A DNA stretch of 64,000 nucleotides from Desertimonas flava (GTDB lineage Bacteria; Actinomycetota; Acidimicrobiia; Acidimicrobiales; Ilumatobacteraceae). Shown piece after piece: positions 12,336 to 25,925 of this stretch. The notes beneath the pieces were generated by a model that worked only from the letters and a program-made list of their open reading frames with translations, had not been told where the DNA came from and made no database searches. The position numbers and the translations under genes are program-made. The stretch's first letter is position 1. Each line of letters begins with the position of its first letter. The DNA is taken from the NCBI RefSeq assembly GCF_003426815.1, contig NZ_QKYK01000011.1, positions 1 to 64,000 on the forward strand, read 5' to 3'.

Positions 12336-12357
12336 CCGACCACGTCGCGCCGGCTAC
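12332..12357. terminator. Hairpin between convergent genes
   Basis: GTAGCCG (12332-12338) and CGGCTAC (12351-12357) pair across a 12-base loop. The hairpin overlaps the stop of the Lon-like gene and the end of the LPXTG gene, and probably serves as a bidirectional terminator. Confidence 0.45.
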
Positions 12358-13350
12358 GCGGGCGACGAGCGGCGGGTCCGCTGGACGAGCACAGCGCCAC
12401 TCAACGTCAGCAGCGCACCGATCGCCGTGACGACGGCGGGCGTCGTGCTCCCGGTGCGGGGAAGCTGCGTCGGGGTTCCACCCGCCGGTCCCAGCGGCCG
12501 CTGTGGTCGGCGCCGGGCCGCCGGTCGTGGTCGGCGCGTCGGTCTGACCCGGGGCACCGGTCGTGGTCGGCGCGTCGGTCTGACCCGGGGCACCGGACGT
12601 GGTCGGCGCGTCGGTCTGACCCGGGGCACCGGACGTGGTTGGGGCCACGGTGGTCGTCGACGCCACGGCTGGGCAGGCCGTGGCATCGAACGACCATGTG
12701 TCCTCGACGGCGACGACCGCACCGTCGGGGTCGTAGACCCGCAGGAACAGGAAGTAGCTGTCGGGGTCCTGGGGGTCCCAGCCGGGCCAGTCGATGGGCG
12801 CCAGGCTGACGGCGTGCGTCTGGGGCGACGACGTGGCCGTCACGCCTGCAGCCGGACCCTCGTAGTCCCCGGCCTCGCCGCCACCTTGGAGTTGGACCGT
12901 GAACGCGCCGGTACCCGACGTGGTGAACGTGACCGACACCGTGCATCCGGCCGTCGACACGTCGTTGAGCGTCGCACCGTACGTGTCGTCTGCCGTCACC
13001 TCGACGGTCGTCGAGAACGTGTTGGTGCCGTCGGAAATGGTGACCGTCCAGGTCCCCGGCCCACGGAAGGGGGTCATCGAGTCGCCGAGGGTGAGCGTGA
13101 AGTTGCCCTCGGGATCAGGGACGACGCCCATGTAGGGCGAGTGCGACCAGCCGTCGCCGAACGGGTCAGTGCCCGTGACGGTCAGCGGGGCCCCTGGCGT
13201 GAACTCGGACCCGGTGATCGTGACCGAGCCGCCGACGTCGATCGTGGCGGGCGTCGGGACGATGTCCGCGTGCACGGGCGCGACGCCCAGTAATCCCCCG
13301 CCCAATGCCGCAGCCACGGCAACGACGAGACTCAAGAAGAGGCGCTTCAT
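12354..13350 (-). CDS. LPXTG cell-wall protein, broken by an apparent single-base frameshift
   Basis: The gene begins MKRLFLSLVVAVAAALGGGL, a clear signal peptide, behind an AGAAGGA ribosome site. Two beta-rich extracellular regions follow (residues about 35-120 and 125-235), then a proline/threonine repeat linker. The in-frame protein then runs into nonsense-looking arginine-rich sequence, ending at 12169 inside the neighbouring gene. One base over, a perfect sorting signal appears: LPRTG, a hydrophobic helix (VVTAIGALLTLSGAVLV) and the basic tail RTRRSSPA, ending at 12354. Frames switch near 12474-12492, in a G-run (rc GGCGGGTGG). Coordinates given assume the repaired product of about 331 residues. 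A real mutation, a phase switch or a sequencing error could explain it. Confidence 0.75.
12523..12630 (-). repeat. Three tandem 36-bp units coding for a Pro/Thr linker
   Basis: Three nearly identical 36-bp units encode APGQTDAPTT(S/T)G repeated, a flexible stalk between the extracellular domains and the sorting signal. A fourth partial unit follows at 12631. Such in-frame repeats are prone to copy-number change. Confidence 0.85.
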
Positions 13351-13481: not shown

Positions 13482-15422
13482 TTAGCCCGTTCTGCGCGGG
13501 GGCCACAGCCAGCCGTTGTTGTCGGTGCCGTATGGTCGGGTGGGTCCGGGTTGGCAGGTCTGTTGGCCGGAGCCGACGATCAATGCGGCGGCGCCGGTGG
13601 CGGTGACGCGTCCTTCGCTGTCGATCAGCCAGACCCCGTCACCGAACAACGGACGCACGGTCGTGTAGGCGACGCCGCTGCCGGCGGTGGCGGGCGCGGG
13701 GTTGGGGAACGACCACGGACCGATACCGATCGTGCACACCTGACGACGCTCGGCGGCCTGCAACGACCAGAACGGATCCCGCGGAGAGCCCGAAGGGTCG
13801 CGGATCTCGAAGTGCACGTGCGGCACCGAGAACTCCGAGTTCCCCGAATCACCCATGTAACCGATGATCTGACCGGCGCGGACCCGATCACCGGGCTGCA
13901 GACCGGGCGGGAACTGCCACACCCGGTCGGCCCGACCATCGTCGGAGCCCGGGTTGTCGTTGTTGGTGTGGAAGTAGTTGTAATGCCAGCCGTCATCGCC
14001 AGAGACCGTCACGCCGTACCCGGCGAGCTCGCTGCCCCGATACCCGACAGCACTGATCGTGCCGTCGACCGCGGCCAGCAACGGCTGCATCCGCACCCCG
14101 ACCAAGTCGACACCCTCATGACGGCGCGAACAATCCACCTCACGACAATCGTTCCAACCCGGGTAATACGACACCGGACCCAACACCGGAAACGCAATCG
14201 AACGCATCGCCCCCGACCCATGCACACCAAGAGACGGCGGCGCCGCCCGCGGATCGCGACGCGCCATGTCCCCCGGCCCGTCCGACAACGTCGGCCCGTC
14301 GATCACCACCGGACCCGCCGCATCGTCCCCTACCCCAACGTCGACGTCGACGTCGACGTCGACGTCGACGTCAGCCGTCTCCCCGGCGGGGGCGTACACC
14401 CCGAGCCAACGCTCCACGAACAACTCCGTCGACAAACGATGCTCGGCGGGGAAGTCCTCCCACCACGCCGTGCCCTCAGCACGCTCCACGAACCACCGGC
14501 CAATGGCACCGACAAGATCACCGTCAGTGCCGACCAACAGCCGCTGCACATCGGCACGGGCCCTGGCATCCTGCACCGACGCCGGCGCGTCACCAGCCAC
14601 GCCATAACCGGCATAGCCGGCCCACTGGTCGGCGCTATAGCCGTACGCACCCGACCGGCCATCGGCATCCGGGGCCACCGCGTAGTCACCACCCGACTCC
14701 AACTCGGCCAGCACGATGACGGCCCGTTCCAGATCGACCACCAACTCACCATCCACCACCATCTCGCCGACGGCGGCCGGCGGCGCCTCCGGCACCGTCG
14801 TCGCGGCGCTCGCCGCCCGGCGCGGCGACGTCAAACCCGACGGAGCCCACGCCGCCGTGCTGGCCGCCGGCACCCGACCCGGCACCGGCCAACCAGCACC
14901 ACCAGGCCCCCCACCCCAACGGCCACCACCCGCGATCCACGTCGTGTTCCACGCAGGCAACGGCCCGAACACCTCCACCGGCAACAGCGTCGTCGTGGTC
15001 GTCGACGTCGTCGTGGTGGGGGCGATCGTCGTGGTCGAGCCGGCATCACTCGACGGAGGGGGCTCACTGCTGTCCACGGGGTCGGAGTCGACCGGGTCCG
15101 AGCCGACCGGATCCGAGTCCACGGGATCCGAGTCGGCCGGGCCCGAGCCGACCGGTTCCGAACCCACCGGGTCGGAACCAGAAGGGTCGCTCGACGGAGG
15201 CGCCGTCGAGGAGGTCGTCGTGGTCGTCGATGTCGGCGGTGCCGTCGTCGATGTCGTGGTGGTCATGGTGGTCGTCGTGGCCGTTGCCGTGGTCGGCGGC
15301 AGCGGCGGAGGCGTCGGGCTGCTGGCGACGACCGGACCGCCACCGGCCAGCCCGCATACGGCGAGCGCACCCACGAGCGCTCGCCGCAGCGGGGCGAACC
15401 AGCAGCGGTCGAGGCAAGTCAT
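13482..15422 (-). CDS. Two-domain peptidoglycan hydrolase: transglycosylase-like plus M23 endopeptidase
   Basis: This is a 646-residue exported protein. A signal peptide (about residues 15-35) is followed by a long Thr/Pro/Ser/Asp-rich stalk with SDPVGSEPVG-type repeats. A lysozyme-like region follows with VLAELESGGDYAV and GAYGYSADQWAGY, where the glutamate at about 241 resembles a lytic transglycosylase catalytic residue. A DVDVDV linker leads to an M23 (LytM) metallopeptidase with HEGVDL near 435 and PHVHFEI near 535, the zinc ligands. It would cut both glycan and peptide bonds. The ATG overlaps the L,D-transpeptidase stop as ATGA, so the two are co-translated. Confidence 0.8.
   Translation of the reverse strand: MTCLDRCWFAPLRRALVGALAVCGLAGGGPVVASSPTPPPLPPTTATATTTTMTTTTSTTAPPTSTTTTTSSTAPPSSDPSGSDPVGSEPVGSGPADSDPVDSDPVGSDPVDSDPVDSSEPPPSSDAGSTTTIAPTTTTSTTTTTLLPVEVFGPLPAWNTTWIAGGGRWGGGPGGAGWPVPGRVPAASTAAWAPSGLTSPRRAASAATTVPEAPPAAVGEMVVDGELVVDLERAVIVLAELESGGDYAVAPDADGRSGAYGYSADQWAGYAGYGVAGDAPASVQDARARADVQRLLVGTDGDLVGAIGRWFVERAEGTAWWEDFPAEHRLSTELFVERWLGVYAPAGETADVDVDVDVDVDVGVGDDAAGPVVIDGPTLSDGPGDMARRDPRAAPPSLGVHGSGAMRSIAFPVLGPVSYYPGWNDCREVDCSRRHEGVDLVGVRMQPLLAAVDGTISAVGYRGSELAGYGVTVSGDDGWHYNYFHTNNDNPGSDDGRADRVWQFPPGLQPGDRVRAGQIIGYMGDSGNSEFSVPHVHFEIRDPSGSPRDPFWSLQAAERRQVCTIGIGPWSFPNPAPATAGSGVAYTTVRPLFGDGVWLIDSEGRVTATGAAALIVGSGQQTCQPGPTRPYGTDNNGWLWPPRRTG
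14340..14372. repeat. GTCGAC hexamer run
   Basis: Five and a half perfect GTCGAC units encode an alternating Asp-Val linker in the peptidoglycan hydrolase. As a hexamer repeat it can change length without breaking the frame. Confidence 0.85.
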
Positions 15423-16243
15423 CGACCCGCCGATGAGTCGATGACGTCGATCGGTGTGCCGGCCGGCAGCTGCCGGAGCACCTCGAGGTCGTCGAGCTGA
15501 AGCCGGATACAACCATGGGAGACCCGAGCCCCGGTCTCACCGATCTCGTCGGCGGCACCGAGCGGACCATGGATCGCCGCGATCGCATCACCCGACGACT
15601 GAAAGTCCGAAATCGTCTCGGAATGCGACGACGTCACCACCACGAACGGACCCCACCCCGACGTCGTATCCGGCGGCTCCTGCATGAACGCCACGAAGAA
15701 GCTGCCCACCGTCGTCGGCGCATCCTCGGTACCGATCCCCGCCGGCGCATCGAGGATCTCCACCCCCGACTCGAACACCCGCAACCGCGTCGTCGCCACA
15801 TCGATCTCCACCCGGAACGGCGTCGACGCCAACGTCACATCACCACGACGCACCCACGCCGTCGACCCGTTCGGCCGCTGCGCCAAACGCACCCGCAACC
15901 ACCCCGGCACCTCATCGATCACCGGCAACACACTCGGCCGGTCATGCCACCTCGCCGGCACCACCCCCACCTCCTTGCCATCAGGCCCATCAAAGCTCGG
16001 CGTGTCCGCAACGAAACTCGCCACCAACGTCGGCGACGCATCGATCGCCTCCGACGACGACGGTGCCTGTGATGCGCTGTCGGGCGTCGTCGACGCCACC
16101 GACACCGTGACGAGATCATCCACCGGCACGGTCGGCGCGACCTCGTCAGGATCATCGCCCGGCCACAACACGACACTGGCCGTCACCGCCGCGACGAGGA
16201 CCACGACAGCGGCGATGACGAACTTGATCGGTGACCGAGTCAT
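15419..16243 (-). CDS. L,D-transpeptidase (YkuD)
   Basis: This 274-residue membrane-anchored enzyme would form 3-3 cross-links in peptidoglycan or attach proteins to it. The N-terminus MTRSPIKFVIAAVVVLVAAV is an uncleaved anchor or signal. A Thr/Ser/Asp linker and an SH3-like region (about 80-135, ending WLRVRLAQRPNGSTAWV) precede the YkuD domain. The catalytic signature IHGPLG followed by RVSHGCIRL is intact, with the cysteine near residue 243. AAGGAGG precedes the ATG. It lies between the giant surface protein and the peptidoglycan hydrolase on one strand, which suggests a joint envelope role. Confidence 0.9.
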   Translation of the reverse strand: MTRSPIKFVIAAVVVLVAAVTASVVLWPGDDPDEVAPTVPVDDLVTVSVASTTPDSASQAPSSSEAIDASPTLVASFVADTPSFDGPDGKEVGVVPARWHDRPSVLPVIDEVPGWLRVRLAQRPNGSTAWVRRGDVTLASTPFRVEIDVATTRLRVFESGVEILDAPAGIGTEDAPTTVGSFFVAFMQEPPDTTSGWGPFVVVTSSHSETISDFQSSGDAIAAIHGPLGAADEIGETGARVSHGCIRLQLDDLEVLRQLPAGTPIDVIDSSAGR

Positions 16244-16342: not shown

Positions 16343-19300
16343 CTAGCCGGTGACCGGGATGGGCCCGGGTGTGATCGGCGCGGGGGGTGCGGCAGGCGGT
16401 GGGATGCGCGTCACCGTGTTGCACTCCGGGTCGACCGTGTCGGGCGCACAGTTGGACAACACCGCCGACACCGTGTTGTGCAGCTCACCGGGACCTGTGA
16501 CCACCTGGTGCACACGCACCGAATAGGTCATCGTCACCGTCTCGCCGACAGCGAGCGGCCCGGACCACGTGAGCGTCGGCGCCGTGAACGACAGGCTGCC
16601 GCTGCTGGCGGATGCCGTGTCGAGCCACGTGGCGTCGTCGAGTACGTCGGTCAGATCGTCGACGGCGACGGCGGGATCGGCCTCGGTGAAGTCGACGTTG
16701 CCCGAGTTCGTCACCGTGACCGTGTACGTCAGAGTGCCGTTGGGCTGCACCGTCGTCGCCGACACCACCTTGCTCACCGTCAGCTCCGGATCACCTGGTG
16801 TCTCGGCGCAGGCGTCGTCGGTCAGCTCGTCTCCGTTCGCACGTACCGTGGCCGTGTTGAGGAGGCCGGTGCCCGACTCCCCCGTGGTCAGCGTGCAGTC
16901 GCGGGCCTCGGCCGTCGCGTCGCCGGCCGCGTCGACCAGGACCACGGCGGTCACGAGGTACACGTGCTGGCTCCCTGCCGCGAGTTCCTCGGCCGTGACG
17001 ACCACGATCTCGTCCTCGCCGTTCCACGAAGGGTCGGTGACGATGCCACCCGGCTCGGTGTTGGCGATCGCTGCCGACTCGACCGTGATGCCGTCCCCGA
17101 ATCGGAACCGGTCATCGAGGTCGTAGCTGCCCGCACCGGTGCCGTCGTTGCTCACCGTGATCGAGTAGGAGATCTCGTAGCGGTTGTCGCCGAGGTCGGT
17201 CGGACCGGATGCGATGTCCTTGACGAGGGTGATCTCCGGCGAGGGGAACGGCGTGCACGTGTCGGCGTCCGCCTCCTCGTCGTTCACCGTCATCGTCGCC
17301 GTGTTGAACAGGCCGGTGCCGTCGTCCGTACCGAGCTCGCAATCGGAGTTCGCCGCCGTGACGAGGGCCGGATCGACGGACACCTCGACCGACACGACGT
17401 ACGCGTGGACGGTCGGGGCATCGGGAGCACCCGCCGTGATCGGCTGGTCATCGACGATGACCAGTGTCGTCGTGTCCGCGTCCCACGTGCCGAGCGTCGG
17501 GATGCCACCGGGTTCGGAGTTGGTGACGGTCGGCGTGCCCTCGATCGTGACGGCGTTGCTGAAGCGGAAGTCGTCGACGAGGTCATATGTGCTGGCCGCG
17601 GCGCCGGCGTTGGTGACCTCGATGGTGAACTCGACGGAGTAGTTGCCGTTGCCGAGAAGTTCCGGTCCTGCCGTGATGGTCTTGGTGTGCAGCGGCTCGG
17701 AGATCGGCGGGCACGCGTCCCGGTCCGCCTCCTCTCCGTTGACGTCGAGCGTCGCCCTGTTGAACAGCCCGGTGCCGGTCTCGCTGTCGGCGAGCGCGCA
17801 GTCGGTGTCCTCGAACGTCACCGTCTCGGCGTCGACCGACACCTGGACCGTGACGACGTAGGCGTGGACCTCGGGAGCACCTGGGGCGCCGGCGGCGATC
17901 GGTTCGCCGTCGACGATCGCCAGCGTGGTGGCCGTCGGGTTCCACGAGCCGAGCGTGGCGATGCCACCGGGCACCGTGTTGACCACGGTCGGTGTGCCCT
18001 CGATCGTGACCGATTCGCCGAACTGGAAGTCGTCCACGAGGTCGTACTCGCTGTCCGCGGCGCCGGTGTTGGTGACCTCGATCGTGTACTCGACCTCGTA
18101 GAGGCCGTTCCCGATCGGGGTGGGGCCGCCGGTGACGGTCTTGGCGTGCAACGGCTCGGAGATCGGCGCGCACGCGTCGTCGTTCTCCACGTACCCGCCG
18201 AGCGTCAGGGTGGACTCGTTGAAGAGGCCGGTGCCGTCGTCGCCGCCCATCTCACAGTCGGTGTTCTCGAACGTCACCGTGTCGGCGTCGAGCGACACGA
18301 CGGCAGTGACCACGTAGCTGTGCGTGGTCGGACCGTCGGCCGTGCCGGCGGGAATCGGCTGACCGTCCACGACGGCGAGTGTCGTCGCCGCCGGGTCCCA
18401 GGTACCGAGCGTGGCGATGTCGCCCGGCTCGGTATTGGTCACCGTCGGGGTGCCTTCGATCGTCACCGACTCGCCGAACATGAACTCGTCGGAGAGGTCG
18501 TACACGTCCGGGGCGGCCCCCATGCTGTGGACGTCGATCGTGTACTCGACCGTGTAGGTGCCGTCCCCGTTCGGGGTCGGTCCGGCGGTGAGCTCCTTGT
18601 CGTGCGTCGTGTACGGCAGCTCGGCGCAGGCCTCGGCCTCGAGGTCGACGTCCTCGACGGTGAGGGCCGCAGTGTTGAGCAGACCGGTGCCGGTCTCGCC
18701 GCCCTCCAGGGCGCAGTCGGTGCTCTCGAACGTGGCCGTCGCCTCGTCGAGAGTCACGTTGGACGTCACCGTGTACACGTGGGTGACGCCGTCGGCGATC
18801 GGTACGTCGTCGGCGATCGTGAGCGTCGTCGTCGCCGCGTCGTACGTGTTGACGAGCGTGATCGATCCGTCGCCGGGGTCGACGTTCGCCGCCACCGGGT
18901 CGCCGTTCAACGTGACGCCGTCGCCGTACTGCAGCGTGTCGGACAGGTCGTAGCCCGGACCGCTGCCCGTGCGGGTGTTGCTGATCGTGAACACGACGTC
19001 GAACGTGCCGTCGTCATTGCGTACCAGCGAGTCGAGCTCTTTGACCAGCACGTCCTCGTACAGCTCGATCAGCGCCGAGGTACGCATCACGAGCACCGTG
19101 TTCTCGGAACGGGCCTGGGCCCGGTTGACGTACACGTCGCCGGGTTCGGCGCCGGACGTCTCGAGCTCGAGCTGGAACTCGAACGTCGCGCCGGGGGCCA
19201 GTTCCGGGCCGATCACGCGGATCGCCGTCACGTCGCCGAGGTCGGCCGGCGGCGTGGTGGTCCAGCCGACGGTGTTGCCGGCCGGATCGCCGGCGGCGCC

Positions 19301-22300
19301 GTTGCTCGCGTCGGCCGGGTCGTCGCTCAGCGTGGTCGGATCGGCGGTCGCGTAGTACACGGTCCCGCCGTCGGGCGTGGCGACCTCGCCGAGGGCGTGG
19401 TCACCGCTGAACTGCGTCCCACGGCCGTCACCGTTGTACGGGAGGATGTCGATCGTGTCGGTGAACGCCTGCGCGACCGGATCGAACGACGAGATCGTGA
19501 CCGTCCACGGCAGCGTCACGGCCCCGGTCTCGTCGGTGATCTGGACCTGCTCGTCCGTCGCCGTCTTGACGATGGCCGTGCGCCCGTTCGTCGAGGTGGT
19601 CACGGTTGCGGTCGTCGGACGGGTGGATTGGTCGTCGACGCTGGCGACGGCGGAGTTCGTCAGCCGTGTCCCGCCGGCGACGTCGGCGTCGGGCCCGGCT
19701 TGGTAGGTCAGCGTCTGCAGAGTGTTCGTCGGGACCCCGTCGAGGTTCCACGTGAGCACCTGCTGGCCGTCGGGGTTCGTCGCCACGCTGGTCGGCGCAG
19801 GTGTGGCCGAGCCGTCGACATAGGTCATGCCTTCGGGCAGGGTGTCGACGATCTCGAAGTCGTCCACGGTCGGCGCGATCGCTCCCGTTCCGTTGGCCGC
19901 GTAGGTGAGCGTGAACGTCGCCGGCTGCCCGGGCAGCACCGTCGGACGATCGACCGACTTCTCGATGGACGGAGTCACGCCGACCACGTAGAGCACGTCG
20001 CGGCCGCTACCGATGTAGGGGTAGCGCATGCCGGGCGTGCGCGGTCCGCCGCCGTCGGTCGGGCTGAGCGTGCGGCTCGGCCGCTGCCACACCCCGTCGA
20101 TCGCCAACTCGCCGAACTGCCAGACGTCCTGGCCGACGGGGGCGTCGTCGTTCAACGTCGCCCGCACGTTCAACAGACCGAGGGGTAGGCCGCTGATGGA
20201 GGAATGCGGGTAGGAGGCCCGAACTGCCTTGACGGTGGACAGGTCGGCCGGCAGCGTCGTCGTCCAGCCACCGGGATCGGTCGCGCAGGTGAACGCGTTC
20301 GGGTCGTACCCGGCGCTCCCCGGATCGACCGTGGCGGCGCCACCGACGTAGTACTCGATCGTCGCGTCGGGGATCGGCGTGCCGCCCCACCTGCCCCGCA
20401 GATAGTGCTCCTGGTACGTGACCCACCTGGTGTCCATGATGATGCACTGGGAGATGATGTCGGTCGGGTCGCGCGGCTCGGTGCCGAGCTGGTGAACGTT
20501 GACCATGTCCACCGGTGCTCCGGCTGACACGTAGAGCTGGTTGCTCCACCACGATGGCGCCGAGACGCCCATGGTCTCGGGGCGCCAGGCGTTCGACCAC
20601 CCGCCCCGCGTGATGGTCTTGTCGGAGCGGTTGTTGTCAGGGTCGTCGCTCGCCGTGGCGCCCGACACCGACGTGTACGTCGGTGCGTTCGAGACCAGCG
20701 TGATGCTGTTGTTCGCTGCGGACTGGATGCGGAACCAGACCGAACCGCTGGCGATTGCCGACCGATCGACCGGCAGGAGCTGATCGGCGGAGTCGGTGGT
20801 CGGTACCTGGGCCAACGAGTAGTCGATACCGGTGAGCGTGAGCTCGAACGTGTCGGCGTCGATCTGCGTCAGTGTGCACGAATCGACGAACGGAGCCATC
20901 TGCTCGGTCGGGTGCGTACCACCCGACCAGGGATGGCCGCCAGCGGGTCCATCCGTGAACGGCGTGCATGCGTTGGGGCCGACGACGAGGCCGGCCGCGA
21001 TCCCGTCGGTCACGGTGAGCTCGTAGGTCACCGAGTCCGGACCGGCCTCGCTGAAGTCTTGGAGGAAGAGCGTCCACTCGAGGTCGACATCGACGTAGCC
21101 CGTGCCGTACTCCCGGAAGTTGGTCGCGCCCTGCCAGGCGATGTCCATGCCGAACGTGTTGACGATCGGGATCGGGTCGGGCGTGACGGTCTGGCCGGCG
21201 ATGGAACCTTCGATCGACAGCTCGCTGCCGGTCGGGCCGTTGGCCGTCACGGGCGTCTGCACGGCCACCGCCGAGCCGGCGTTCACCGTGCCGAAGTTGC
21301 ACGTCAGCGTCAACCCGTCGGTGGAGATGCTCGACGCCGGAGTGACGCCGGTGGTGAGGCAGGCGTCGGGGATGCCCTCGAACCGGCCGTTGCCCACGGT
21401 GAACGTGGCGGTCACGTCGTCCACCGGGTCGTTGCCCGGCGGATCGGCGCTGTCATTGACGTTGACGTACCACTGGGCCACCACCGGGTCGCCGCTGGCC
21501 ACCTCGGCCGGCGGCGTGATCCAGTCGCCGGCGATCTCGTACTCGGGAGGCCCGGCCAGCGCCAACGGCGCGAAGAGGCCGTCGTCCGCCGCCGGCGGCA
21601 CGTCCTCGGTCGTCGCGGGCACGTCCTCGGTCGTCGCGGGCACGTCCTCGGTCGTCGTGGGCACGTCCTCGGTCGTGGTGGGGGGCACGTCCTCGGTCGT
21701 GGTGGGGGGCACGTCCGCTGTCGTCGCGGGCACGTCCTCGGTCGCCGGTCCGAAGGTCACCTCGGACTCGCCAGGGGCGTGGAGCCCGATCGTCTCGACG
21801 TTGTCGGGTCCGAGCGCATAGGTGCCTTCGTCGTCGGCGACGACGGCGACCGTGAACGTCGCCGACGTCGCACCGGCGACCAGCTCACCGTGGGCCTCGA
21901 CGATGTTGGAACCGACCTCGGCCGTCACGGCGATGCCGTCGGTTCCGGCGACCGGCTCGGCCACCGTGAGACCCGCGGGCAGCGTGGCCGTGAACGACCA
22001 GCCCGACTTGGAGCCCAGCTCCGTCGTATTGGTCACGGTGAAGGTCAGCGGCACGACATCGCCCGCCGCGGCATCGTCGGAAGCGCCGAGCTCGAGATCG
22101 AGCTGGGGTGTCACGTCGACCAGCCGGAGATTGTCGAGGGCGCCGACACCGGCGCCGCCGGGGCTGGCGCTCACCACGATCTGGAGCGAACCGCCGGGCG
22201 CCATCACCGCCACGTCGCCGAGCGCTGTTCCGACGGCGATGTCTCCCGCCACGACGGCGGGGCGGGCGCAGACGTCGACCGCGGTCGACGACGCGGGCAG

Positions 22301-23167
22301 TTGCGTGCCGTCGGCCACGAGCGACAGGTCGAATCGGGGCGCACCGGCACAGTTCGCCGACGCGAAGTCCGCGGCGACGGTGTAGTAGTGGCCGGGTTCG
22401 ACACTGACCGGAGCCGTCGCGACGACGGCGCTGCCGGCGCCACCCGGAACCGGTGTGACGACGTGGTTGCCCTGCGACTGCGTCACCCCACCCCATTGAC
22501 CGAGCACGTCGGCCAGAGTGCGCACGACGTTCCACTCCTCGGCGGTGCCGGGCCACCCGTTCGGAGCGATCGCGTCACCGTAGGAGGCGACGATTCCGCT
22601 GGCACTCACCGGCTGGCCCACCTCGAAGTCGTCGGCGAAGACCAGGACAGGGGGTTGCGGTGTTCCGGGCAGACCCGGCACCGATGCGGCACCGAAGGCC
22701 ACGTCACTGGCCGGCACCCCGGAGACGAGCGGTGCGTCGGCCGGCGAGGCGATCGTCGTGGCCGGCGGCGTCGAATCGACCGGTTCGGACGGAGGCGCGG
22801 AAGCGTCGGTGGTGGGCGCCGGGTCCGTCCCAGTCGATGTCGGCGGAAGCGATGACGGCGGCGACGTGGTCGTCGCGGCGGCCGCGGTCGTTGCGGGTGG
22901 CGATTCGGTGTTCGGTGGCGTCGGCGCCGGCTCGGTTGGTGTCGTCGCCGGCTCGGTTGGTGTCGTGGCCGGCTCGGTGGCTGGTGGCTCCGGCGGCGGG
23001 GTCGAGGCGTCGGCGACACTCATCGGGACGACCAGCCCGGACAGCAACGTGGTCGTCACGAGCAGGACGTTGACGGCCCAACGGTGGCGTCGAGAGCGGT
23101 GGTTGCCGAGTCGCGATGAGGGCGCGTTCGTTGCTCTCGTGTGAGCCAAACCTCGAGCGTTCTCCAC
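16343..23167 (-). CDS. Giant repeat-containing surface protein ending in IPVTG
   Basis: This is a 2,274-residue exported protein. The GTG at 23167 follows AGAAGG by 9 bases; an ATG at 23230 would add 21 residues and lacks such a site. A basic region (RSRRHRW) and hydrophobic helix end in SVADA near residue 54, a signal peptidase I-like site. A Pro/Thr stalk (about 52-139), a jelly-roll-like region (about 175-360), a DUF11-like domain, an EDVPxTT repeat (about 474-523), a long unassigned region, a DUF11 domain (about 1056-1176) and five tandem domains of about 150 residues (1366-2126) follow, then a last DUF11-like domain. It ends IPVTG and stop, with no membrane helix. It is probably an adhesin or S-layer-like filament. 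Confidence 0.8.
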   Translation of the reverse strand: MENARGLAHTRATNAPSSRLGNHRSRRHRWAVNVLLVTTTLLSGLVVPMSVADASTPPPEPPATEPATTPTEPATTPTEPAPTPPNTESPPATTAAAATTTSPPSSLPPTSTGTDPAPTTDASAPPSEPVDSTPPATTIASPADAPLVSGVPASDVAFGAASVPGLPGTPQPPVLVFADDFEVGQPVSASGIVASYGDAIAPNGWPGTAEEWNVVRTLADVLGQWGGVTQSQGNHVVTPVPGGAGSAVVATAPVSVEPGHYYTVAADFASANCAGAPRFDLSLVADGTQLPASSTAVDVCARPAVVAGDIAVGTALGDVAVMAPGGSLQIVVSASPGGAGVGALDNLRLVDVTPQLDLELGASDDAAAGDVVPLTFTVTNTTELGSKSGWSFTATLPAGLTVAEPVAGTDGIAVTAEVGSNIVEAHGELVAGATSATFTVAVVADDEGTYALGPDNVETIGLHAPGESEVTFGPATEDVPATTADVPPTTTEDVPPTTTEDVPTTTEDVPATTEDVPATTEDVPPAADDGLFAPLALAGPPEYEIAGDWITPPAEVASGDPVVAQWYVNVNDSADPPGNDPVDDVTATFTVGNGRFEGIPDACLTTGVTPASSISTDGLTLTCNFGTVNAGSAVAVQTPVTANGPTGSELSIEGSIAGQTVTPDPIPIVNTFGMDIAWQGATNFREYGTGYVDVDLEWTLFLQDFSEAGPDSVTYELTVTDGIAAGLVVGPNACTPFTDGPAGGHPWSGGTHPTEQMAPFVDSCTLTQIDADTFELTLTGIDYSLAQVPTTDSADQLLPVDRSAIASGSVWFRIQSAANNSITLVSNAPTYTSVSGATASDDPDNNRSDKTITRGGWSNAWRPETMGVSAPSWWSNQLYVSAGAPVDMVNVHQLGTEPRDPTDIISQCIIMDTRWVTYQEHYLRGRWGGTPIPDATIEYYVGGAATVDPGSAGYDPNAFTCATDPGGWTTTLPADLSTVKAVRASYPHSSISGLPLGLLNVRATLNDDAPVGQDVWQFGELAIDGVWQRPSRTLSPTDGGGPRTPGMRYPYIGSGRDVLYVVGVTPSIEKSVDRPTVLPGQPATFTLTYAANGTGAIAPTVDDFEIVDTLPEGMTYVDGSATPAPTSVATNPDGQQVLTWNLDGVPTNTLQTLTYQAGPDADVAGGTRLTNSAVASVDDQSTRPTTATVTTSTNGRTAIVKTATDEQVQITDETGAVTLPWTVTISSFDPVAQAFTDTIDILPYNGDGRGTQFSGDHALGEVATPDGGTVYYATADPTTLSDDPADASNGAAGDPAGNTVGWTTTPPADLGDVTAIRVIGPELAPGATFEFQLELETSGAEPGDVYVNRAQARSENTVLVMRTSALIELYEDVLVKELDSLVRNDDGTFDVVFTISNTRTGSGPGYDLSDTLQYGDGVTLNGDPVAANVDPGDGSITLVNTYDAATTTLTIADDVPIADGVTHVYTVTSNVTLDEATATFESTDCALEGGETGTGLLNTAALTVEDVDLEAEACAELPYTTHDKELTAGPTPNGDGTYTVEYTIDVHSMGAAPDVYDLSDEFMFGESVTIEGTPTVTNTEPGDIATLGTWDPAATTLAVVDGQPIPAGTADGPTTHSYVVTAVVSLDADTVTFENTDCEMGGDDGTGLFNESTLTLGGYVENDDACAPISEPLHAKTVTGGPTPIGNGLYEVEYTIEVTNTGAADSEYDLVDDFQFGESVTIEGTPTVVNTVPGGIATLGSWNPTATTLAIVDGEPIAAGAPGAPEVHAYVVTVQVSVDAETVTFEDTDCALADSETGTGLFNRATLDVNGEEADRDACPPISEPLHTKTITAGPELLGNGNYSVEFTIEVTNAGAAASTYDLVDDFRFSNAVTIEGTPTVTNSEPGGIPTLGTWDADTTTLVIVDDQPITAGAPDAPTVHAYVVSVEVSVDPALVTAANSDCELGTDDGTGLFNTATMTVNDEEADADTCTPFPSPEITLVKDIASGPTDLGDNRYEISYSITVSNDGTGAGSYDLDDRFRFGDGITVESAAIANTEPGGIVTDPSWNGEDEIVVVTAEELAAGSQHVYLVTAVVLVDAAGDATAEARDCTLTTGESGTGLLNTATVRANGDELTDDACAETPGDPELTVSKVVSATTVQPNGTLTYTVTVTNSGNVDFTEADPAVAVDDLTDVLDDATWLDTASASSGSLSFTAPTLTWSGPLAVGETVTMTYSVRVHQVVTGPGELHNTVSAVLSNCAPDTVDPECNTVTRIPPPAAPPAPITPGPIPVTG
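16790..19070 (-). repeat. Five tandem units of about 460 bp in the giant surface gene
   Basis: Units start near KELDSLV, HDKELTAGP, HAKTVTGGP, HTKTITAGP and VKDIASGP and share YDL.D.F.FG..VTIEGTPTV, GTWD..TTTL and TDCxLxxxxxGTGL(F/L)N. The middle three are most alike, suggesting recent internal duplication. Each unit carries two conserved cysteines. Confidence 0.8.
21598..21745 (-). repeat. EDVPxTT stalk repeats
   Basis: About eight short units coding EDVPATT/EDVPPTTT form an acidic, threonine-rich stalk. Near-identical 21-24 bp DNA units make the stretch unstable in length. Confidence 0.8.
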
Positions 23168-23258
23168 TGTGCACCACCTTCTCTCCACCCACGAACCAAC
23201 TGATTCGCAGGACCCATCACCGGAATTCATGACTAACGACAGGGTCGGGTGGCCGGCG

Positions 23259-25925
23259 ATGACGAAATGTGCTCAGATTCCGGCGTCCTCATGCCCCGGA
23301 TGTCTGGTTAGCGTCAGGTACGTGGGCGAACTGCGCGTGGGTGCTGCTTCGATCGCCGGCGTCGTCGACCGACCGCGCCTGTCGACGATCCTCGACTCCG
23401 ACCTTCTGCAGGTCTGTGTGGTGCAGGGGCCGAGCGGCTCGGGCAAGACGACCTTGGTTCGCAGCTGGGCCTTGCAGCAGACGTCGGACCACCCCGTCGC
23501 TTGGATCTCGGTGAACAAGCTGCTGGCAAGCCGGCACTCCTTTTGGCAACACGTCGTCAACAGCGCCCACCGCTTGGGCCTTCTTGCCGACGACACGGCC
23601 CGTTCACTCAGCGATCAGCTGACCGTCACCGCCGATCCGATCAGGATCGCGACGGCGCTCGTCGCGGAGTCTCGACGGCTCACATTGGTGTTCGACACCT
23701 ACGAGAACCTCGGAGCTCTCACACCGGAGATCGACAACGACGTCACACGAATCGTCGCAACCGTTCCCACTGCACGCGTCCTGATCACCACAAGAGGCCC
23801 CACGGCGCTGGCCGACCAGGACCTCCCGGCCGGTCGCATCTCACGGGTGATCACGATGAGCGAGCTGGCCTTCACCCCAGACGAGATCCACACACTCGTC
23901 GCGAGTCAGACCGGCCTGGACGACGTGCACTTGGCTCGCTCGATCGCCCGCTCGACGCGGGGATACGCACTCGAGGTGCGCGCCGCCGTGCTCGCCGTGG
24001 CGAACCTCGGGACCGTGCCACGGGCCGACTCGGCCGAGTGGAGCACCGTTCTCGAAAGTCGACTCGAGGCCTTGCTGCCCGACCCGCTGGCTGCCCGGTT
24101 CGTCGCCGACACGAGCGTCCCCCCGTACTTCGACATCGACCTGGCCGCCCGGCTGACCGGACATCCCGACGCCGAAGGTCTGCTGTCAGTCTTGGAGCGC
24201 AACGGCTTCGGACGGTGGATCCCGTACGCCCGTGGGCGTCCCGTCTTCCAGTACGTCGAGGCGGTCCGCGACGTCTTCCGCACACGAGCGGCCGACGACG
24301 ACGAGCGGCTCCGGCGATCCTCCAGAACGACCGCTCACTGGCTCCTCGACAACGGCGACCTCGACCAGTCGCTGCAGTTCGCCATCGCCGGCGGTGACTA
24401 CGCCACCGCTCAACTGATCTTCCTGCTGTTGTTGATCACCGATCCCGACAGCTACATCTCCGACCGATTCCTCGTCCCGCTGCAGCAGATCCCGCACGAG
24501 GAGCTGGAGCCGCACCCACTCCTCGCCTTCGCCCTCGGTCTGGCGTTGATGGCCAACCCCATCCTGCGGCAGGAAGCGCCGAGTGCGTTCGCCATCTCGA
24601 TCGCTTCGACCGCGATGCCGGTGAAGCTCTCTCCGCAATTGGACCGGTTCTGCTCGGCCAGCCTGAAGGCCGTGGCGCGTCGGCTGATCTTCCGGTTCCG
24701 GGAGTCCGCCGACGCCAGTCTGGAGGCGGCTCAGCTCGTGGACGCCATCGACGCAGACGTCGTCGAGCAGTTCCGCGAGCACATCGGGACGATCTTGCGC
24801 CAGCTCAGCTACTCGTTGCTCCAGGGCGGCAAGATCGACGACGCCCTGGTCATCATGGCCCGCTCGGCAGCCCTGTGCGTGAACGAGACATCGCGGAACT
24901 ACTCGATCGCCTATGCCGCGGGAACGAGTGCGTTCGCCGGGGACATCGCCAAGGCCAAGGCCTTCCAGTTGGCCATCGACACGAGTGCGTGGCCCGCCGA
25001 TCTCAGGCAGTCGTACATGAACGGCCTCGGCCTCGTGGCCGAGGGCTTCATTCGCCTCGACAGCCTCGACTTCGCGGGAGCGCTCGACGTGCTCGGCGAG
25101 TCGGAGTCGTACATCCAGACCGCCGAGTTCTGGCCCTTCCTCACGGCGATCTCGATGGCAGCACGATTCGGCCTCGGGCAGGGTCTCGCCGAGGCCGAGC
25201 GCGTGACCGCGGAACTGTCGAAGCCGGTTCCGCCACCGGGCATCGGCGACAACGTCGGGACCGAGCTCCTCAACGCGTGGCTCGCCCACTTGTGGCTGCA
25301 AGGCGGAGAGCCCCGGCGGGCCGCCGGCGTGCTCGAGAACCAGCGGGCCGACAGCCCTCACCTCGCGTGGGCGCGCGTCGAGGTGTTGCTCGAGGCCGGC
25401 CATGCGCGCCGTGCCCTCGACCTCGCGTCGGTGCTCCTCGAACTTCCAGGTCACACACTTCGCTCCCGCGCGGCGACGCAGACCGTGGCGGCCGTCGCCG
25501 CCGCACGGCAGGGTGCACCAGACGTGGCGATCTCGTTGCTGAACCGGGCGGCAGTCATCTACGAGACGTACGGCGCCCGACTGCACGTGGCGCGTCTGCC
25601 GCTCGCCGATCGCGTCGTCCTGTTGGAGCTGGCGCGGCGATCCGGATCGACGAGCCTGCAGCACTATCTCGAGCTGCCGACCGGCGTGACGCCGGAAGCG
25701 GGTCGCCCGACGGTCGAGCTGACACCCCGCGAGCGGGTGGTCCTCGCCGCTCTCGCCGAGCACGGCACCACGCGCTCGATCGCCCACGCCCTGGTCGTGT
25801 CGCCCCACACGATCAAGTCGCAGCTGCATGCCATCTATCGAAAGCTCGGGGTGTCGTCGCGCGACTCGGCATTGAGGGTGGCGCGTGAGTACGGCTTGCT
25901 CGACAGGACCGAAGTCGGCTCCTGA
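23259..25925 (+). CDS. LAL/MalT-type LuxR family regulator
   Basis: This is a large ATP-binding transcriptional activator of about 888 residues. It has a P-loop, VVQGPSGSGKTTLVRSW, a Walker B-like LTLVFDTYENL, a long tetratricopeptide-like middle, and a C-terminal LuxR helix-turn-helix, LTPRERVVLAALAEHGTTRS, SPHTIKSQLHAIYRKLGV. In MalT-type proteins an inducer and ATP drive oligomerisation on direct repeats. It is divergent from the giant surface gene, with starts less than 160 bp apart, so it may control that gene. The start is uncertain: ATG at 23229 or 23259, or GTG at 23322, which would put the P-loop at the usual distance from the N-terminus. Confidence 0.82.
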   Translation: MTKCAQIPASSCPGCLVSVRYVGELRVGAASIAGVVDRPRLSTILDSDLLQVCVVQGPSGSGKTTLVRSWALQQTSDHPVAWISVNKLLASRHSFWQHVVNSAHRLGLLADDTARSLSDQLTVTADPIRIATALVAESRRLTLVFDTYENLGALTPEIDNDVTRIVATVPTARVLITTRGPTALADQDLPAGRISRVITMSELAFTPDEIHTLVASQTGLDDVHLARSIARSTRGYALEVRAAVLAVANLGTVPRADSAEWSTVLESRLEALLPDPLAARFVADTSVPPYFDIDLAARLTGHPDAEGLLSVLERNGFGRWIPYARGRPVFQYVEAVRDVFRTRAADDDERLRRSSRTTAHWLLDNGDLDQSLQFAIAGGDYATAQLIFLLLLITDPDSYISDRFLVPLQQIPHEELEPHPLLAFALGLALMANPILRQEAPSAFAISIASTAMPVKLSPQLDRFCSASLKAVARRLIFRFRESADASLEAAQLVDAIDADVVEQFREHIGTILRQLSYSLLQGGKIDDALVIMARSAALCVNETSRNYSIAYAAGTSAFAGDIAKAKAFQLAIDTSAWPADLRQSYMNGLGLVAEGFIRLDSLDFAGALDVLGESESYIQTAEFWPFLTAISMAARFGLGQGLAEAERVTAELSKPVPPPGIGDNVGTELLNAWLAHLWLQGGEPRRAAGVLENQRADSPHLAWARVEVLLEAGHARRALDLASVLLELPGHTLRSRAATQTVAAVAAARQGAPDVAISLLNRAAVIYETYGARLHVARLPLADRVVLLELARRSGSTSLQHYLELPTGVTPEAGRPTVELTPRERVVLAALAEHGTTRSIAHALVVSPHTIKSQLHAIYRKLGVSSRDSALRVAREYGLLDRTEVGS

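Follow-up and report, generated by a model that had tools for sequence, protein, structure and literature searches.

A Conserved C-Terminal Tag Beside L,D-Transpeptidase Genes Suggests an Undescribed Route for Fixing Proteins to the Bacterial Wall

In Desertimonas flava a giant secreted repeat protein ends IPVTG directly before its stop codon, no membrane helix follows, and the next gene encodes a predicted L,D-transpeptidase (LDT) of the YkuD type. The tail is conserved in a second gene set of the same genome and in Ornithinicoccus halotolerans, each time beside an LDT gene, and in a second LDT group all 38 loci have a neighboring gene whose product has a related ending, C-terminal [YF][TA]G. 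A conserved tag in this position suggests an undescribed route for fixing proteins to the bacterial wall. The reading we favor, though at no more than an even chance, is that the giant terminates in a full cell-wall sorting signal of a type not yet described, which would be read by the adjoining LDT. Somewhat more tentative, just short of evenly balanced, is the wider proposal of a sorting system in the Actinomycetota in which YkuD LDTs would function as "sortases" of reversed polarity, with C-terminal L-Thr/Ala-Gly as acyl donor, with [YF/V]-[TA]-G-COOH as tag and with several substrates per genome, wall hydrolases included.

The Giant Protein and Its Neighbors

The window, by which the whole stretch of 64,000 nucleotides is meant, carries the following features of the locus, all on the minus strand:

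16343..23230, minus: giant secreted repeat protein, 2295 aa, ending IPVTG-stop, with DUF11/B_ant_repeat matches
23006..23083, minus: signal-peptide region, about residues 50-75 (hydropathy; limits set by eye)
16802..19081, minus: five tandem all-beta repeats of ~150 aa with two Cys each (alignment, structure model)
16412..16777, minus: last domain of the giant, DUF7927/DUF11 type (domain match)
16346..16399, minus: Pro-rich C-terminal tag, last 18 residues PPAAPPAPITPGPIPVTG (similar ends in the paralogue and in O. halotolerans)
15419..16243, minus: L,D-transpeptidase with N-terminal helix, SH3-like domain and YkuD domain (domain match; model)
15503..15520, minus: LDT active-site motif SHGCIR (alignments)
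13482..15422, minus: M23 peptidase/transglycosylase-like protein, ending RRTG-stop; its start overlaps the LDT stop as ATGA

The initial annotation let the giant begin at 23167 (2274 aa), whereas the ATG at 23230 gives 2295 aa; the C-terminal end is the same. The protein contains domains of the DUF11 type and of the B_ant_repeat type, and its strongest hydrophobic segment is the signal peptide near residue 55, there being none in the last 60 residues. The description "five recent tandem domains" was confirmed as to the number of domains, each of which has about 150 aa and two Cys, but not as to "recent": overall identity is 35–66%, pairwise 55–66% among the three middle copies and 35–44% for the first and the last, and because identities span this range only the three middle repeats are close. 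Similarly, the paired cysteines, which had been called unusual, are real but are a trait of the whole repeat family and no oddity of the giant. It should be noted that the copies counted (5 in the window, 14 in the paralogue and 12 in O. halotolerans) were found by a pattern that includes both Cys, and the count is therefore no test for Cys-less copies. Structure prediction of one repeat, a check that had been proposed, gave an all-beta model with a mean pLDDT of 93.7, for which Foldseek found 9 matches at E 0.001 or better, all of them pilin chains and all weak (TM on query 0.40–0.44). Divergent from the giant, at 23169-25925 on the plus strand, lies a gene for a LuxR-type regulator with a STAND-like ATPase, whose longest open reading frame (ORF) overlaps the start of the giant.

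The neighbor at 15419..16243 is a predicted YkuD L,D-transpeptidase by domain (PF03734, E 8.1e-12), by its SxGC motif and by its modeled fold: the model has a pLDDT of 94.8 for residues 70-274 and matches YkuD and mycobacterial LDT (LdtMt) folds, e.g., 1y7m with VIA Z 17.7, rmsd 3.9 and 140 aligned.

A Tail That Ends at Glycine

It had been stated that the giant ends IPVTG followed at once by TAG and that no sortase-type tail is encoded downstream. Both statements were borne out: the last residues are PITPGPIPVTG, the stop was confirmed, and a hydrophobic helix with a basic tail is absent after TAG in all three frames (240 nt read in each). Frame 0 is open beyond TAG into the LDT gene, whose start codon follows 34 codons on and whose product has its own N-terminal helix; the spacing from the tag to this helix is wrong for a sorting signal. 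The opening is not common to the relatives, the LDT of the paralogue being in another frame and that of O. halotolerans being in the same frame with a stop before it. Of the features of LPXTG-type sortase substrates the giant thus has the LPXTG-like pentapeptide near the C-terminus (IPVTG) and lacks the helix and the basic residues, and the C-terminal Lys that acts as acceptor in proteins of the Lpp type has no counterpart, the last 18 residues being without Lys.

Loss of a tail by a nonsense mutation or a sequencing error, a possibility that the initial annotation wished to see examined in orthologues, is ruled out by the same end in two relatives. The ending IPVTG-stop or VPVTG-stop recurs in the second cassette of the same genome and in O. 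halotolerans, in each case beside an LDT of one clade, with Gly directly before the stop and no full sorting signal; therefore, the end of the giant is conserved and not broken. The suggestion that the protein is anchored otherwise, for example by the neighboring L,D-transpeptidase, gains support from an LDT association that reaches far beyond the locus in the window.

The Same Tail in a Second Cassette and in Ornithinicoccus halotolerans

In the D. flava genome, [ILM]-P-x-T-G directly before TRR occurs at 19 places; a true stop is present at 8 of these, and two of the 8 terminate long ORFs, those of the window giant and of a paralogue on contig C13. The C13 giant ends ELPPPPAPPAPPTPSPIPVTG (...PSPIPVTG, then stop), has at least 14 repeat copies in an ORF that runs off the contig and is, by reading, without the last DUF11 domain before the tail; the tail is nevertheless kept. 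Its cassette has the window order giant-LDT-M23, its LDT is 66% identical to that of the window, and in both cassettes the LDT and M23 genes overlap as ATGA and the M23 proteins end TG-stop. The second cassette adjoins apparent ribosomal protein genes and also an ordinary sortase substrate with LPETG, helix and RRR (L020:5148-6458, plus strand). There are two sortases in the D. flava genome, both on contigs other than that of the window, and four in O. halotolerans.

When a collection of species genomes was searched with the LDT pair, seven relatives were found. In one of them, O. halotolerans (Intrasporangiaceae), the giant is at least 3208 aa long, carries the same repeat in 12 copies, ends EPAPPPAPPAPVTPDPVPVTG (...PDPVPVTG, then stop) and is directly followed by an LDT that is 63% identical to the window LDT and has SLGC in place of SHGC. 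The remaining six (three from Frankia, one each from Microthrixaceae, an Acidimicrobiales MAG and Paractinoplanes) had no such upstream end in the flanks examined. In a tree of 37 LDT rows the three cassette LDTs form one clade with a support of 96/88 (all 37 rows were used for the tree, 33 of them for the structure alignment A4, from which L077, L079, L081 and L084 were left out).

A peptide-pattern search of the genome_contigs collection for relatives of the giant matched 12 stretches, none of which was confirmed, and the C-terminal domain of the giant had matches in 2 of 268 genomes of the order, its own and G273, where the locus examined stops short of the C-terminus. With the LDT, a match was found only in the own genome, both among 101 genomes of the family and among 396 genomes of the phylum at E 1e-55. 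The pattern P-x-P-[ILVM]-P-V-T-G followed by a stop or TGG was present at 4 places in 3 of 397 genomes of the order, the two own ones being the only real ORF ends; with [IVM] at the variable position 8 of 394 class genomes had a match, the real ends being those of O. halotolerans and L094. The latter, in an ORF open for 286 aa that looks hydrolase-like by eye and has no LDT in the ~750 nt read downstream, was taken as a chance match. Among the 31 genomes of the O. halotolerans genus set O. halotolerans alone was found.

A Second Group of L,D-Transpeptidases With Tagged Neighbors

LDT relatives were also sought by the LDT profile alone: 396 genomes from the order to which O. halotolerans belongs were searched with a cut-off of E 1e-30, and up to 6 candidates were scored per genome. 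The 48 matches in 47 genomes comprised the LDT of O. halotolerans, 9 LDTs that are cassette-like and 38 of a second group, which a 100/100 branch of the tree separates from the cassette side (20 of the 38 were included). Eight of the 9 cassette-like loci were examined with longer flanks (G722 was left out); these LDTs (L148-L155) have no tagged neighbor, and in 6 of 8-9 the upstream ends are PASTA-like by eye.

In the 38 loci of the second group TG is the commonest C-terminal dipeptide of the called ORFs (31 of 233; the next, AA, occurs 10 times), as compared with 0 of 65 ORFs in 8 cassette-like loci and 3 of 348 in 20 control regions treated with the same simple gene caller. The control regions were 20 kb in each of 20 genomes with second-group LDTs, their positions being hand-chosen and not program-drawn. 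The first motif, C-terminal [YFVW]TG in ORFs of at least 80 aa, was present in 32 of 38 second-group loci, 0 of 8 cassette-like loci and 3 of 20 controls, with the matches at L125 (CCWTG) and L127 (TVTG) seeming spurious by eye. Because all six loci that lacked it had a neighbor ending [YF]AG, the motif was widened to [YF][TA]G, which, with the same minimum length of 80 aa, closes 45 ORFs in 302 kb and is present at every one of the 38 loci, a count that is partly after the fact since A at −2 was admitted only when the six misses had been read; the cassette-like loci have it in 0 of 8 (83 kb) and the controls in 2 of 20 (2 ORFs in 400 kb). The two control matches are L159, a choice-of-anchor U protein with the C-terminus ATFTG whose genome also encodes a second-group LDT, and L160, ending DLEYAG. 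Fisher's test on loci (38/38 vs 2/20) gives 4e-13, which is only a guide, since the loci include many orthologues and the motif had been broadened once the data were seen.

In the second-group loci the same scan gave no ORF ending in [YF][TA]A, [YF][TA]S, [YF][TA]R, [YF]G[TA] or [HQ][TA]G, and three ending in [YF][VL]G. Among ORFs that by a crude rule have a signal peptide and no other helix, [YF][TA]G closes 18 of 73 near the LDTs, none of 15 in the cassette-like loci and a single one of 52 in the controls.

Partner Proteins and Tail Consensus

At every one of the 38 loci the nearest tagged protein, hereafter partner, is 75-519 nt away from the aligned LDT segment, 12 times upstream on the same strand, 24 times convergent and twice divergent, and at some loci (L116, L140, L145, L147) there are two or three partners per LDT. 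At L116:54-5169 three separate proteins with C-terminal YTG and nearly identical tails surround one LDT. When the tails were removed, 43 partners (the spurious L132, SLLFTG, 1 of the 45 ORFs, and one 109-aa ORF having been left out) fell into 12 blastp clusters, the largest with 28 members and eight consisting of a single protein. The loci are not independent because 28 of the 43 partners are in one linked cluster, and the number of 12 itself overstates independence, the short Pro/Thr-rich partners of several clusters being alike by eye. A signal-peptide-like start was found in 28 of 31 complete partners. Only 1 of 12 partners scanned had a match in Pfam, and 2 of 16 had one above the cut-off in NCBIfam, both choice-of-anchor Q domains that end not more than 40 residues from the tail. 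In the NCBI nomenclature "choice-of-anchor" domains are those that precede differing C-terminal sorting signals.

The tail consensus of the partners is A-x-P-V-x5-[YF]-[TA]-G at the C-terminus. Of 37 distinct tails, 32 have V at −9, 30 have A at −12 and 31 have T, not A, at −2, with Y in 22 and F in 15 at −3; since the search itself dictates the letters at −1 to −3, free observations are confined to −9 and −12. The window tag agrees with the consensus in its final Gly, in the Thr before it and in A at −12, and the giant also has the LDT neighbor, a signal peptide and no C-terminal helix. Because V at −3 (not Y/F) and T at −9 (with I at −10) break the consensus, the window tag is considered a sister version rather than a member.

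Further variants were met on plasmids, where LDT searches gave few actinobacterial matches (Amycolatopsis, and Miltoncostaea twice; those from Bacillus, Paenibacillus and Bosea were left out). For example, the gene after the LDT on plasmid NZ_CP024895.1 of Amycolatopsis sp. AA4 encodes WP_009086095.1, which ends PKPGHQPVTG. On a plasmid of Miltoncostaea oceani an SdrD-B/DUF11 surface protein (L135:875-4465) overlaps the LDT start and ends ARPVPVTR, so that Gly is not universal; this protein and its LDT adjoin a TasA-family protein and signal peptidase I. The second M. oceani LDT has no TG partner. In two genomes of the second-group set, similar ORFs on the other side of the LDT (L137:3438-5123 and L141:5762-7447) end LPIPTG in the one and VPIPTE in the other.

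How an L,D-Transpeptidase Could Read the Tag

LDTs require a tetrapeptide donor, the last residue of which is released (PMC12729407, excerpt), and they can exchange D-Ala4 for glycine (PMC10434034, excerpt). Because Gly is achiral, L-Thr-Gly or L-Ala-Gly with a free carboxylate would fit this donor rule, and the fit would explain why the tag has to be strictly terminal and can do without a helix. After secretion of the giant via its signal peptide, the Pro-rich tail would bring the free C-terminal ...Val-Thr-Gly-COOH to the LDT. The terminal Thr-Gly-COOH would mimic the end of the stem peptide: the catalytic Cys (SHGC) would attack the Thr carbonyl as it does the L-center of mDAP in the mDAP-D-Ala tetrapeptide stem, and Gly would leave in place of D-Ala. 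The acyl-enzyme would then transfer the protein onto a stem-peptide amine (DAP), by which the C-terminus would become fixed to peptidoglycan. A membrane helix would be unnecessary because the enzyme would need the carboxylate to be free immediately beyond the bond that it cuts. That the LDT works on the tag, in this direction and with this covalent product, is inferred; the PVTG form of the window and the [YF][TA]G form presumably work alike.

This does not mean that all observations point the same way. In the LDT-protein bonds described in PMC12274547 and PMC12729407 (excerpts) the protein is the acceptor via Lys or an N-terminal amine, which is the opposite direction to the one proposed and counts against it. 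Also to be counted against a tag read by LDTs are the PVTR end of Miltoncostaea, the untagged LDTs of Frankia, Microthrixaceae and Acidimicrobiales, which belong to the same large clade, V at −3 in the window tag, SLGC in O. halotolerans and the presence of sortases in both genomes. Indeed, the tag-less Frankia and cassette-like LDTs indicate that not every related LDT has a tagged neighbor.

Alternative Explanations

The tag could be a docking peptide that binds the LDT, e.g., its SH3-like domain, with no covalent C-terminal bond and with attachment via the N-terminus or none at all. An SH3-like domain precedes YkuD in these LDTs by sequence, model and alignment, and attachment by Lys or N-terminal amines is how known LDT-linked proteins are bound (excerpts cited above). 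Docking, however, would not need a motif fixed to the very last residue, altered forms of which were found in 0 ORFs of the same loci, and the cassette-like LDTs outside the cassettes share the SH3-like domain yet have no tagged neighbor in 8 of 8 loci; we regard docking as rather unlikely. Clearly less probable is that a sortase cuts the tail-less IPVTG between Thr and Gly while the LDT merely remodels the wall at the site. The motif is LPXTG-like, sortases are encoded in both genomes (two and four), and there is a precedent in the streptococcal AbpA, whose LPKTS-AVK end without a hydrophobic domain is anchored by SrtB of the same locus (PMC4974636, excerpt). Against a sortase stand the location of both D. 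flava sortases on other contigs, the ordinary LPETG signal with helix and basic tail beside the second cassette of the same genome, and the wider tag [YF][TA]G, which is not LPXTG-like and stands beside an LDT in all 38 loci.

That the protein is simply released, its membrane tail having been lost, would agree with the look of IPVTG as a shortened sortase motif, but the end and the Pro-rich run leading up to it are common to three proteins, and a vestige would hardly keep both the end and the LDT neighbor; the probability of release is accordingly judged very small. Smaller still, and almost negligible, is that of read-through of TAG into a giant-LDT fusion held by the LDT helix, for which frame 0 of the window is open and which is disfavored in 2 of 3 loci by the other frame of the LDT in the paralogue and by the stop before the LDT in O. 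halotolerans.

Relation to Known Sorting Systems

With the sortase/LPXTG system the proposed LDT route would share a C-terminal Thr-Gly motif on secreted proteins, several substrates per enzyme and the expected bond between Thr and peptidoglycan; the tag here, however, ends at Gly without helix or basic tail, and the linked enzyme is of the YkuD type and no sortase. AbpA and SrtB of oral streptococci likewise combine a very short, helix-less C-terminal signal with an enzyme at the same locus, but the enzyme is a sortase B and in AbpA three residues follow the motif (PMC4974636, excerpt). In Lpp, OprI, OutB and beta-barrel OMPs it is YkuD enzymes that fix proteins to the DAP of peptidoglycan (PMC10434034, PMC12274547, and PMC12729407, excerpts); these systems are Gram-negative and the protein is the amine acceptor (a C-terminal Lys in the Lpp type, an N-terminal Gly or Ala freed by signal cleavage in the OMP type), whereas the tag would donate its C-terminal carboxyl. 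PEP-CTERM/exosortase, GlyGly-CTERM/rhombosortase and MYXO-CTERM/myxosortase are similar in having a C-terminal sorting tag on many substrates, and different in that their tags consist of motif, helix and basic cluster and their enzymes are intramembrane or membrane-spanning proteases (PMC11980579, excerpt); relatives of myxosortase were traced via the two-gene neighborhood of enzyme and target (PMC11980579, excerpt). The giant has the domain type of DUF11/B_ant_repeat surface proteins but a different C-terminal end. In Corynebacterium glutamicum, PorH and ProtX are reported to be probably covalently linked to the wall (PMC12632848, excerpt). A literature search gave no report of such a tag among the matches listed; its scope lay mostly outside subscription papers and part of it was aimed elsewhere.

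If the proposal is true, many secreted hypothetical proteins of Actinomycetota would be wall-anchored, the role of a subset of their L,D-transpeptidases would be explained, and there would be a second covalent C-terminal wall-sorting route in Gram-positives, as far as we know. The tag of about 12 residues without a helix might find use in protein display, inhibitors of LDTs such as carbapenems would be predicted to block surface display also, and a direct prediction for mass spectrometry would follow.

A Further Secreted Protein in the Window

At 12354-13350 on the minus strand the window encodes a secreted protein with Thr-rich 36-bp repeats, of which an ordinary LPRTG-helix-RR end lies one frame off the N-terminal part; this offset is probably a frameshift or an assembly error.
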